46,380 nt of DNA from Bacteroidia bacterium (GTDB lineage Bacteria; Bacteroidota; Bacteroidia; UKL13-3). A program made the translations under genes and the position numbers. The DNA is taken from the NCBI GenBank assembly GCA_023151275.1, contig JAKLJI010000025.1, positions 1 to 46,380 of the forward strand, read 5' to 3'. Below the pieces are notes generated by a model. The model was not told where the DNA came from. It worked only from the letters and a program-made list of their open reading frames with translations, and searched no databases. Position 1 is the first letter of the stretch. Every line of letters begins with the position of its first letter. Shown here piece by piece: positions 19,708 through 26,436 of this stretch.

Positions 19708-19890
19708 GGGATTGCAGGCAGTACCCCACAGGCCACTTGCTTTGCTAGGCTTGGGAATTGGAAGGCTTATCGATTTTGCCAAGGGGTACTGTGCTGCTGC
19801 AAAAGCGACCTTAGAAGCTCTTTGCAGCAGCTACAGTACCCGAGCAAGTGGCCGAGGAGTACAGACGCAAAGCCCGACCCCGGGCGGAAC
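19708..19890 (+). ncRNA. Structured intergenic element, copy A
   Basis: Starts GGGATTGCAGG and ends near GCCCGACCCCGGGCGGAAC. An inner hairpin of about 20 bp joins 19784-19803 and 19821-19841 (GGGTACTGT...ACAGTACCC and GCTGCTGCAAA...TTTGCAGCAGC) around the apical loop AGCGACCTTAGAAGCT. An outer stem joins GGCCACTTGCT (19731-19741) and AGCAAGTGGCC (19843-19853). Copies B and C keep the loop and the ends but change both sides of the stems together. It could be a structured RNA or a non-autonomous palindromic mobile repeat; transcription was not shown. Confidence 0.55.
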
Positions 19891-19967
19891 GAAGGTTGGC
19901 CATGAAACGAAAATGGGCCTGCCCGGGGTTTCGCCCAAACAGACCCATTGTTTATTGGAATGTGCGT

Positions 19968-21599
19968 TTATGCAGGTTGTACTTTGGAATACATTTTAGC
20001 GCGTTGCTCCTTGATGCTTTCATCGTTGATGTATTCATCGAAGCTCATGCGTTTATCGATAACTCCGGATGGGGTTAATTCGATAATGCGGTTGGCAATG
20101 GACTCGGTTAAGGCATGGTCATGCGAGCTAAACAAGACCACGTGCTTCCATTCAATCAAGGCATTGTTTAAGGCTGTAATCGATTCCAAATCCAAGTGGT
20201 TGGTGGGCTCATCAAGCAGCAGGCAGTTAGCGTTCATCATCATCATGCGGCTTAGCATGCAGCGCACTTTCTCGCCTCCCGACAATACATTGGATTGTTT
20301 AAATACTTCTTCACCTGAGAAAAGCATTTTTCCTAAAAATCCACGGATATAAGTTTCATCTTTCTCGGTAGAATATTGCCTTAACCAATCAACCAGGTTG
20401 TAATCGTTTTTGAAGTAAGCTCCATTTTCATTGGGCAAGTAAGCACGGGTGATGGTCTGCCCCCACTCTATGGTTCCGGCTTCTGGCATATCTTCACCAG
20501 CTAACAAATCAAAGAAGGCACGTATGGCCAATTGGTCTTTCGATAATACTGCAACCTTATCTGTTTTGCCCAGCATAAAATGAATATCATCGAAAAGCAC
20601 TTGTCCTTCTGAACCGGTTTTACGCAGGCCTTCAACTTTCAAAATCTGGTCACCGGGTTCGCGGTTGGGTCGATAAATAATGGCAGGATACTTGCGTGTT
20701 GATGGAGTAATATCATCTACTACAAGTTTTTCAAGCAACTTTTTACGGCTGGTTGCCTGACGTGATTTCGAAGCATTTGCAGAGAATCGTTCAATAAATT
20801 CCTGCAATTCTTTGCGCTTGTCTTCAATCTTTTTGTTTTGGTCTGAACGCTGGCGCAAAGCCAACTGCGAGCTTTCGTACCAGAAGGTATAGTTTCCGGT
20901 ATAGAGTTTTATTTTTCCAAAGTCAATATCGGCAATATGCGTACAAACGGCATCCAAAAAGTGACGGTCGTGAGATACAACAATAACTGTGTTTTCAAAA
21001 TCAGCAAGAAAGTTCTCTAACCAGGTAATGGTATCCACGTCCAAGTCGTTGGTAGGCTCGTCGAGCAAAAGGATATCGGGATTGCCAAATAATGCCTGGG
21101 CAAGCAATACGCGCACCTTCTCTTTACCATTCATTTCTTTCATGAGCAAACCATGCTTATCTTCGCTCACACCCAAACCACTTAACATGGAAGCGGCATT
21201 GCTTTCTGCATTCCAGCCATCCATTTCGGCAAATTTTTCTTCCAGATTAGCCGCACGAATGCCATCTTCTTCCGAGAAATCGGGCTTAGCATAGAGGGCA
21301 TCTTTCTCTTCCATTATTTTGAACAATTCTGTATTGCCCATCATAACAGTATGCAAAACGGTAAACTCGTCAAACGCAAAGTGGTTCTGGCGCAATACCG
21401 ACATCCGCTCACCGGGAGTAATGGACACATGTCCGGTTGTTGGGTCTATTTCTCCTGCAAGGATTTTAAGGAAGGTTGATTTTCCGGCGCCATTGGCTCC
21501 AATAATACCGTAACAATTGCCGGGTGTAAATTTAACATCTACCTCTTCAAAGAGGGTCCGCTTTCCATAGCGGAGCGAAAGGTTTGAAACTGAAATCAT
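19968..21599 (-). CDS. ybiT: ABC-F family ATPase, YbiT type
   Basis: 543 residues from ATG 21599 ([14 protein letters not shown]); the upstream extension lacks family similarity. Two ABC domains on one chain with no membrane segments, the ABC-F layout of ribosome-associated translation factors. The first domain has Walker A GANGAGKS at about 36-43 and '[12 protein letters not shown]'. The linker contains '[21 protein letters not shown]', characteristic of YbiT. The second domain has LSGGE and '[14 protein letters not shown]', but its Walker A is degenerate ('[15 protein letters not shown]', no GxxGxGK), a trait I recall in Bacteroidota homologues. YbiT acts at the ribosomal E site in E. coli. 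Confidence 0.9.
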
Positions 21600-21763
21600 A
21601 AAAGGTCGGCGAAGATAGGCAATTTTACAGGCATTCAGCGAATTAATTCGGATTTCTCTCTGCAAATGCTTGTGCATTGAAGGATTGAAAGCTGCAGAAA
21701 ATCAATTCACAGCTGCGCACGAAATGACTTGCAGTTTGCAGGCTTACACCCTAAATTCCCAAC

Positions 21764-22957
21764 ATGCATGTACTTCGCATTTCTGCACTTATTCTTGGAA
21801 TAAGCCTACTCAGCTCTTGCCATATTGGTCGATTCTTTTTTTGGAATTTTGCAGATGCAAATGACCATAAGAAATTTGCCAGTCTGCCCATTCAAGCTCC
21901 TGAAAAGAGCTTTCGTTTTGCAGAAACCAAGTTGTTTCATGCCAATTTGCCCAGTGAAATTTCCTACAAGAACAAGCCCTTAAGCTTTGAGGATTTTCTC
22001 ACAAAAACACAGAGTCTGGGATTTTTGGTTATTCGCAATGATTCCATTTTGTACCGTTGGGAAAATCCTAAGGAGGAGCGTAATCGGGTTATTCCTTCTT
22101 TCTCGGTTGCCAAATCCTTTGTTTCGGTTTTGATTGGAATTGCCATTGACCAGGGAAAAATTAAAAGTGTTGAAGAGCCAATTACCAATTACTTGAAAGA
22201 ACTTGACTCATCCAGGTTTGGCAAGATTCGTATCCTTGATGTACTGAATATGCGGAGTGGAATTCAATACAACGAAAGTTATTTTAATCCCTTTGGCGAT
22301 GTGGCCAAGTATTACTACGGAACCAATCTTCGCAAGTACATCAAAAAACAAAAGATTAAAACCGAACCCAATAAAGAGTTTGAATACATCAGTTTGAACA
22401 CCCAATTGCTTGGAATGATTATTGAGCGAGCCACTGGACAATCGCTTGAAAAATATTTGGAAGAAAACTTATGGACAAAAATGGGCATGGAATTTCCGGC
22501 AAGTTGGAGCATCGACAGCAAACGGCACAAGGAAATTAAAGCTTTTTGTTGCCTCAATGCGCGTATGGTTGACTTTGCCAAACTGGGTAAATTGATGTTG
22601 AACCAGGGCAATTGGAATGGAAATCAATTGGTATCTCGCGAATGGGTGAAGCAATCTACGCAAGCCTTTCCCGAGAACTACTTTGTGTATTCGTATCAGT
22701 GGTGGCATACGCAAGCTATGCTTGACTCCAACCAGGTTCAACCCAATCAAGCACATTACATGATAAATGTGCGCAAGCCCAATGGAAGCTTAAGTCGCGC
22801 CGCCGTGGTGGCATCTGGCGATTATTTTGCCGAAGGAATTTTGGGACAATACATTTATTGCTATCCCGAAAAAAACATCATCATTGTTCGCATGGGCAAG
22901 GATTACAATTTCGACCATTGGCCACAATTGTTCAAGCGAATTGCTCAAGCCAATTAG
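21764..22957 (+). CDS. Serine hydrolase lipoprotein (beta-lactamase class C-like)
   Basis: 397 residues. A lipoprotein signal ends LLSSC with the lipobox cysteine at 19, so it is probably membrane-anchored. The catalytic SxxK motif is SVAK (114-117), and 'YISLNTQLLGMII' supplies the YxN-like second motif. 'GILGQYIYCYPEKNIIIVRMG' near the end corresponds to the KTG/HxG strand region. This is the class C beta-lactamase/DD-peptidase/esterase superfamily; members in Bacteroidota hydrolyse esters, D-amino peptides or unknown substrates, and no lactamase activity should be assumed. It is a single gene, convergent with the SRPBCC gene that follows. Confidence 0.85.
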   Translation: MHVLRISALILGISLLSSCHIGRFFFWNFADANDHKKFASLPIQAPEKSFRFAETKLFHANLPSEISYKNKPLSFEDFLTKTQSLGFLVIRNDSILYRWENPKEERNRVIPSFSVAKSFVSVLIGIAIDQGKIKSVEEPITNYLKELDSSRFGKIRILDVLNMRSGIQYNESYFNPFGDVAKYYYGTNLRKYIKKQKIKTEPNKEFEYISLNTQLLGMIIERATGQSLEKYLEENLWTKMGMEFPASWSIDSKRHKEIKAFCCLNARMVDFAKLGKLMLNQGNWNGNQLVSREWVKQSTQAFPENYFVYSYQWWHTQAMLDSNQVQPNQAHYMINVRKPNGSLSRAAVVASGDYFAEGILGQYIYCYPEKNIIIVRMGKDYNFDHWPQLFKRIAQAN

Positions 22958-25985: not shown

Positions 25986-26134
25986 CAAAAAACAGCTTGA
26001 TTAATCCTTTTCAACATCCTTGTTTTAAGACATTTCTAACAATAAATAAGGAGAATATTAACCCACGTTGGGAGTTTATTAAGATTTGAAAAGCGACCTT
26101 TGAGTGTGCAAACAAGGGAATGCGGAGATGGGAT

Positions 26135-26187
26135 GGGAGTTTATTGTCGCGGGTTGTTTATAGAGAAGACAGTAAACTCCCTTTTTT
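26135..26187 (+). terminator. Intrinsic terminator after the DUF2490 gene
   Basis: GGGAGTTTATTGTC (26135-26148) pairs with GACAGTAAACTCCC (26168-26181) with a single G-U pair, giving a 14-bp stem and a 19-nt loop, followed by six T. A partial repeat of the left arm (GGGAGTTTATTAAG) lies at about 26070. Confidence 0.85.
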
Positions 26188-26295
26188 GTGATGAAAATTT
26201 AGAAAGCAAACTAAACTTTTAGTTAGTCAAGACCTGAATTTTTTAACAGGCAAACAATAAACAGATTGAATTTTCGGGATGTACGTGGCGCATGA

Positions 26296-26436
26296 GGGAT
26301 TGAAGCGGTAACCCACAGCAGCCGAACAGGGTGGATGTTGGCGGCCAAAAGCGACCTTAGAAGCTCTTTGGCCGACTTACAGCCACCTGGTTTGGCTGCG
26401 AGGATTACAAGCGCAAAGCCCGGCGCCGGCCGGAAC
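26296..26436 (+). ncRNA. Structured intergenic element, copy B
   Basis: Starts GGGATTGAAGCGG and ends GCGCAAAGCCCGGCGCCGG. The inner stem is GGCCAAA/TTTGGCC (26343-26349 with 26367-26373) around AGCGACCTTAGAAGCT, the same loop as copy A. The outer stem GCAGCCGAACAGGGTGG (26318-26334) pairs with CCACCTGGTTTGGCTGC (26383-26399) with few mismatches. The stem sequences differ completely from copy A while pairing is kept. It lies between the DUF2490 gene and the convergent rhomboid gene. Confidence 0.55.

Follow-up and report, generated by a model that had tools for sequence, protein, structure and literature searches.

A long-armed form of the Flavo-1 repeat in Bacteroidia with DNA-like stem pairing

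What maintains a family of long hairpins whose ends and apex are conserved while the stem between them is free to change? The question is raised by a contig of a Bacteroidia bacterium (GenBank assembly GCA_023151275.1, contig JAKLJI010000025.1; 46,380 nt), analysed at full length and termed the window here, which is an entire contig (C17) of a 3.9-Mb draft genome and holds three copies (A, C, and B) of such an element. A preliminary description, made from the letters of the window, had seen in these copies a structured repeat family kept paired by selection, either an undescribed structured RNA or a folded single-strand mobile element. Each element is a three-way junction of ~190 nt, consisting of a closing stem (P0), a long arm (P1), and a second arm (P2), with P1 running from a GA-rich conserved base through a stem of free sequence to a conserved apex. 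As the best single explanation, a single-strand DNA element is favoured over an RNA.

The apex, written as the pattern GCGACC-N2-4-RGAAGC, matched the genome 69 times, compared to a single match in the reversed control. One of the 69 (window position 43835) was judged false by its surroundings, leaving 68 apex-bearing copies; the 67 that were inspected all match a covariance model of the long form (built from 38 copies; genome matches accepted at E ≤ 0.01), as does the remaining copy, on contig C2. The long-form model returned at least 102 matches in the genome, 96 of which were 125–187 nt in length (150 of 373 candidates scored), and a short-form model returned at least 10 copies at E ≤ 1e-6 (33 of 1074 candidates scored). 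As the covariance-model searches scored a subset of candidates, including 33 per genome (short form) and 11 per genome (long form, 295 genomes) in the multi-genome searches, copy counts are lower bounds. The long-form model had no matches in three congeners, one of them only 79% complete. Model and apex pattern together uphold the structured repeat family that had been proposed, and the scan that had been suggested recovered all three window copies and many more.

Pairing is selected while the stem sequence is free. Among 68 long-form matches in this genome, double changes occurred in all 27 model pairs, with 91.6% of cells paired (64.5% shuffled; 28–39% slid), in agreement with the earlier view that covariation reflects a selected structure. 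Outside this genome, in 25 long-form matches from 15 other genomes and one further contig (one match being a weak second match in locus L323), double changes were found in 26 of the 27 pairs, with 92.5% of cells paired and 216 double-changed cells compared to 63.7 when shuffled. For the short form, 11 of 12 pairs had double changes (100 distinct model rows). Model-made alignments lean towards the model's own structure, and counts from MAFFT alignments agree with them. Chance or misreading is ruled out by the apex counts and the shuffled and slid controls.

The spectrum of pairs and mismatches in these stems is DNA-like, not RNA-like. In the same short-form rows, G·T accounted for 8 of 1163 paired cells against 186 double-changed cells, and in a short-form MAFFT set (n = 25) for 0 of 290, with 45 double-changed cells; the distal stem of the long form held 51 G·T compared to 1607 Watson-Crick cells. 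The G·T share in the elements was thus 0–3%, while the small signal recognition particle (SRP) RNA of this phylum, also a hairpin and of comparable length, had G·U in 72 of 832 cells (8.7%; 30 sequences). Isolated mismatches in the free stem (63 copies) were G·A 41, G·T 21, G·G 12, T·T 10, A·C 3, C·T 3, A·A 2, and C·C 1, compared to G·U 14 and G·A 1 in SRP RNA (28 distinct sequences; Fisher P = 3e-5 for the G·A/G·T balance, a generous value since the copies are related), and 22 copies elsewhere had G·A 11 and G·T 7. The order found here resembles the stability order of DNA mismatches. Purine-purine mismatches exceeded pyrimidine-pyrimidine mismatches in the distal stem (204 versus 48), and therefore it is the fold of this strand that counts. 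Over the whole of P1, G·T (88) and A·C (82) were about equal because of a conserved C·A. Copies with large inserts (A, L042, and L070) were excluded from the arm comparisons (whole-P1 mismatch count), and these three and L058 from the distal-stem spectra and extra-base counts.

P0 consists of the five bases before AGGG, usually GC or GG and three variable bases, with the complement before C(CC); the partner was present in 42 of 64 copies, compared to 8.6 on average and at most 17 over 500 shuffles, and each window copy has it. The second hairpin, P2, has a loop that varies and, in the copies read, spans some 30–40 nt; near-identical copies differ in this loop, as they might if it held target-derived sequence. 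The basal part of P1 is paired but carries conserved G·A and C·A mismatches and an extra A. In 22 copies from 15 other genomes (L346 excluded), the two P1 arms were 55–60 and 55–58 nt long, matching the 55–60 nt per arm in this genome, a length that was constant although element G + C ranged from 0.35 to 0.77. Counted from the apical pair, the 3′ arm has an extra base at distance 3 in 52 of 63 own copies (5 of 22 in other genomes) and at distance 14 in 54 of 63 (16 of 22), and the 5′ arm has extra bases around distance 22–24. In two loci (L148 and L166), P1 harbours a further, GACGC..GCGTC-type palindrome that seems to be an inserted repeat of another kind.

All three copies that the preliminary description had placed in the window are present, and they are intergenic as described, B and C between convergent genes and A between tandem genes. 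The element ends had been drawn too short, as the second hairpin and the closing stem also belong to each element. Copy A (19702–19936, plus strand) is closed by GCGAAA (19702–19707) and TTTCGC (19929–19934), with both arms and a 3′ end of GCCC; its P1 (19708–19875) has the apex GCGACCTTAGAAGC at 19805–19818 and an additional asymmetric insert in the 5′ arm, and its P2 (19878–19928) was read from the sequence as CCCCGGGC / GCCCGGGG. Copy C (22968–23158, minus strand) is closed by GCAAA and TTTGC, has its P1 at 23027–23152 with the apex GCGACCACAGGAAGC at 23083–23097, and ends at its 3′ side ~10 nt from the stop of an open reading frame (ORF; 21764–22957). Copy B (26290–26481, plus strand) is closed by GCATG (26290–26294) and CATGC (26475–26479), with P1 at 26296–26421, the apex GCGACCTTAGAAGC at 26351–26364, and P2 at 26423–26475, read likewise as GCGCCGGCC / GGCTGGCGC with one G·T. 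The covariance model matched C (112.2 bits, 23025–23154) and B (101.6 bits, 26294–26423), both in the seed, and A, which was outside the seed (50.5 bits, E = 8.8e-8, 19752–19876). A BLAST search with copy B recovered copy A (E = 1.6e-10) and, weakly, one end of copy C (E = 0.08). The stems had been said to differ completely while staying paired; they are paired, but A and B are alike next to the apex.

Among known families, the element resembles Flavo-1 (Rfam RF01705) in its basal module (roughly GGGAYNGNAGCGGNANCC ... GGANTANNAGCGGANAGCCC), its occurrence in Bacteroidota, its intergenic position, and its high copy number. It differs in that the window copies have a longer P1, a new apical module, and a fixed arm length, and in that a closing stem and a second arm are added outside the 76-nt Rfam model. 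The comparison with Flavo-1 that had been suggested gave a divided answer: the window copies had no match at E ≤ 10, nor did any of 11 further loci with long copies in the same genome at E ≤ 5, whereas three of three short copies from this genome exceeded the gathering score of 42 bits (L257, 57.9; L272, 54.7; L083, 52.6 bits). Long-armed loci elsewhere (n = 18) spanned the interval, with two passing (L348, 42.5; L344, 42.4 bits), seven at 29.8–38.3 bits, and nine without a match. In other genomes, the long-form model mostly recovered short relatives (46–99 nt; genome G031 has two of 127–130 nt), and 11 of 16 such loci matched Flavo-1 (L112, 62.2; L099, 58.7; nine others, 25.9–34.7 bits). The 12 pairs of the Flavo-1 basal helix were 97.3% and 97.8% paired in two short-form alignments, and the long-form alignments contain matching basal pairs; the basal helix, conserved mismatches included, is common to both. 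No other Rfam family had a plausible match at the elements tested. These comparisons firmly indicate a long-armed Flavo-1 variant rather than an unrelated new RNA. As the long-armed copies elsewhere bridge the score gap, common descent of the P1 base with Flavo-1 is well supported, with the long arm as a new part.

The long form was found in at least 15 further genomes of the class, from six other families (295 genomes searched). A pattern scan of GTDB contigs added Marinifilum, Arenibacter, a Cytophagaceae metagenome-assembled genome (MAG), and others, together with six MAG contigs labelled as Spirochaetes or a group within, for which binning errors are possible. The available parts of the literature on Flavo-1 describe no long-armed form and no DNA role, and a 2022 review (PMC9029176), in the portion available, places it among the most abundant small RNAs with no function given.

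Gene contexts, based on simple ORF calling rather than gene prediction, differ between the long copies of this genome and the short copies of others. For 60 of 67 copies in this genome, genes were called on both sides, and the 3′-side gene is directed towards the element in 48 of these (P = 3e-6), often with its stop within 60 nt; tandem contexts were 24 antisense and 7 sense, with 24 convergent and 5 divergent. Short-form copies in other genomes had no orientation rule (49 toward and 38 away in 87 contexts, from 100 of 103 matches entered with 13 at locus edges; tandem, 27 antisense and 22 sense), which agrees with the account in PMC9723704, in the part available, of Flavo-1 matches lying sense or antisense to transcribed regions alike, with many outside them. 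Of the own copies, 47 of 67 have the element strand on the side that is richer in G locally (P = 0.001), as do 45 of 66 short copies elsewhere (P = 0.004; 66 of the 103 matches taken). On the assumption that local GC skew indicates the leading strand, the folding strand would mostly be the lagging-strand template. Neighbouring genes are diverse, with the family most widely shared near copies spanning 4 genomes, and a cis-regulatory RNA was rejected on this ground.

Taken together, the element may be a non-autonomous, intergenic, folded single-strand DNA element of a Flavo-1 superfamily, acting in the manner of REP sequences or attC sites, a reading to which we assign a probability of roughly 0.5. 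The element strand would be exposed, most likely as lagging-strand template, and fold, and a putative structure-reading DNA enzyme or protein would bind the base and the apex across a defined spacing. Its occasional action would have multiplied the element, to ~100 copies in this genome and none by the long-form model in three congeners, after which continued selection would keep the resident copies paired. A wider version is more tentative and falls somewhat short of even odds, namely that Flavo-1 is the short form of a DNA-hairpin superfamily of Bacteroidota (and, by a few MAG contigs, Spirochaetota), and that the long form serves as a structural ruler, with two conserved heads ~57 bp apart on a free stem, read on the lagging-strand template by the putative DNA-structure enzyme.

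The likeness to REP sequences and REPINs with their RAYT (TnpA-REP) transposases lies in intergenic position, palindromic form, high copy number, and species-specific expansion, and in stems that vary with pairing kept and have their symmetry broken by mismatches and bulges (PMC6006769 and PMC3733652, both in part). REPs are shorter (21–65 nt, according to the part of PMC6006769 available, compared to ~190 nt), the element copies inspected have no GT[AG]G or CGTC foot but mostly G-S and three variable bases before AGGG, and GTAG repeats often have G·T pairing (PMC3733652, in part), unlike the element here. The Bacteroidetes RAYT subclass 2.6, with its ‘atypical’ structures in the available part of PMC6006769, could be related. 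From attC sites the element would differ in other ways, as its copies are scattered over many contigs, apparently not in cassette arrays, and their apex is conserved. As in the element, the stems of attC sites are free in sequence apart from the extra bases. Like the element, attC is a folded hairpin read on one strand via extra bases at fixed spacing (PMC3053210, in part), and the extra bases at fixed positions point to a likeness of working rather than of descent.

A number of observations weigh against the DNA element. In the distal stem, G·T still exceeded A·C (51 versus 17), as a weak RNA signal would give, the G-rich-strand bias was not seen in long copies elsewhere (12 of 22), and most long copies of this genome (48 of 60) adjoin gene ends the same way round. 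The only species pair close enough, G011/G022, has shared copies and ambiguous breakpoints and gave no empty site with clean borders. No recurrent neighbouring enzyme was found among the genes adjoining copies, and a Y1 transposase was absent (E ≤ 1e-10) from 7 of 22 element genomes, including two with at least 14 and at least 17 copies. Spread by phage or plasmid left little sign: short-form exact patterns matched only 19 viral-contig stretches, which were not checked individually, and one composite query of plasmid and phage records returned nothing. Copies at orthologous sites are retained across species and have covaried there, and therefore copies are kept, not only spread; double-changed, G·T, and broken pairs numbered 4, 1, and 3 in one orthologous pair and 3, 2, and 3 in a second. 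The third pair (0, 0, and 2), identical at 127 of 130 sites compared to 90% for the locus, is conserved above its surroundings and looks like resident function. The folded single-strand mobile element of the preliminary description fits better than its alternative, but its mobility is putative, as no clean empty site and no enzyme were found.

Mobility is favoured by the contrast of at least 102 matches here with none in the three congeners, and by copy numbers that vary widely within genus g35, from at least 2 to at least 19. In the search for empty sites, the congeners G001–G003 were only 72–75% identical in the best-matching stretch. In the closer pair, at one shared copy (L194/L195), identity ends exactly at the 5′ end of the element; there G011 continues into ~7 kb of different DNA, the portion read containing ordinary genes. 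Since Y1 is absent from several copy-rich genomes, a RAYT transposase is not required as mobiliser, and its presence had no link to the element (15 of 22 element genomes versus 67 of 126 others at E ≤ 1e-10). Each of the two Y1 genes of this genome (L001, 1396–1857, minus strand; L002, around 1501–1836, minus strand) has other, small repeated palindromes alongside and not the element. In its Y..NQK.HH motif the first resembles subclass 1.2 of PMC6006769 (in part), a subclass for which the table there lists no REP. In G036 the sole Y1 gene (L093) lies ~190 bp from the only element match that the short-form search gave there and has small palindromes of its own, probably a chance placement.

The reading of the family as structured RNA, which Rfam and the discoverers of Flavo-1 hold (probably RNA, not cis-regulatory), would make the copies many small transcripts, or parts of transcripts, with the long arm binding a protein. 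Flavo-1 is listed by Rfam as a small RNA (sRNA) and had been catalogued as a probable RNA in 2010, with RNA ‘y’ in Table 1 of PMC2864571 (in part), and strong covariation, the conserved apex and GA-rich base, and orthologous copies under selection would all suit an RNA. The scarcity of G·U and excess of G·A relative to SRP RNA do not, nor do short relatives without an orientation rule, diverse neighbour genes, and the matches on either strand in the available part of PMC9723704; Flavo-1 kinship and the pair and mismatch spectrum have likewise weakened the proposal of an undescribed structured RNA, and we regard an RNA as rather unlikely. The orientation of the long copies would suit a gene-end hairpin kept by the host, in which the complementary strand, transcribed from the adjacent gene, would form a structure at mRNA 3′ ends (protection or termination), or the DNA hairpin would be bound by a nucleoid or segregation protein. 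Both the 48 of 60 genes pointing at the element and the tandem (24 versus 7) and convergent/divergent (24 versus 5) counts are in its favour, but the rule is missing in short forms elsewhere, the mismatch asymmetry favours the strand opposite to that of such mRNAs, and none of the three window copies is followed by a T-run in gene direction, making this explanation unlikely.

The pairing itself might be maintained without selection if template switching (quasipalindrome correction) kept the palindrome perfect, a process that would yield double changes with few G·T intermediates, as observed. It leaves the conserved G·A and C·A mismatches, the fixed extra bases, the fixed arm length, and an apex conserved across families unexplained, and is considered highly improbable.

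Other repeats occur beside the element. Another family, with a repeat of ~171 bp whose inverted ends are of the AACCCGGATTATGCATTTGA type, resembles miniature inverted-repeat transposable elements (MITEs); it was found in loci L013, L021, L026, L032, L038, L046, L079, and L082, and as partial copies in the window at 8634–8764 and 24900–24985 (82% and 77% identical). In L026, one element copy has this family on either side (1192–1362 and 1603–1809), and no insertion of the element within it was found among the loci examined. The window also contains a cassette-like array at 1408–8526, in which four-fold repeated intergenic blocks (families D1, D5, D8, and D10) separate moderately sized ORFs; a tandem run of eight units of the CATGAAGG type at 17020–17760, behind an ORF of 2527 aa; a three-fold palindromic array TTTACTCA..TGAGTAAA at 38548–38620; and, at 41780–46245, a ~2-kb block containing sequence that recurs two to three times (families D2, D7, D13, and D14).

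If the family is DNA, the annotation of Flavo-1 as RNA would be wrong. The element would then provide folded single-strand sites from many genomes, each with a length ruler and fixed extra bases, and with them a route to the enzyme. The comparison of G·T and G·A in stems is a simple test to distinguish DNA from RNA hairpins in other motif collections.

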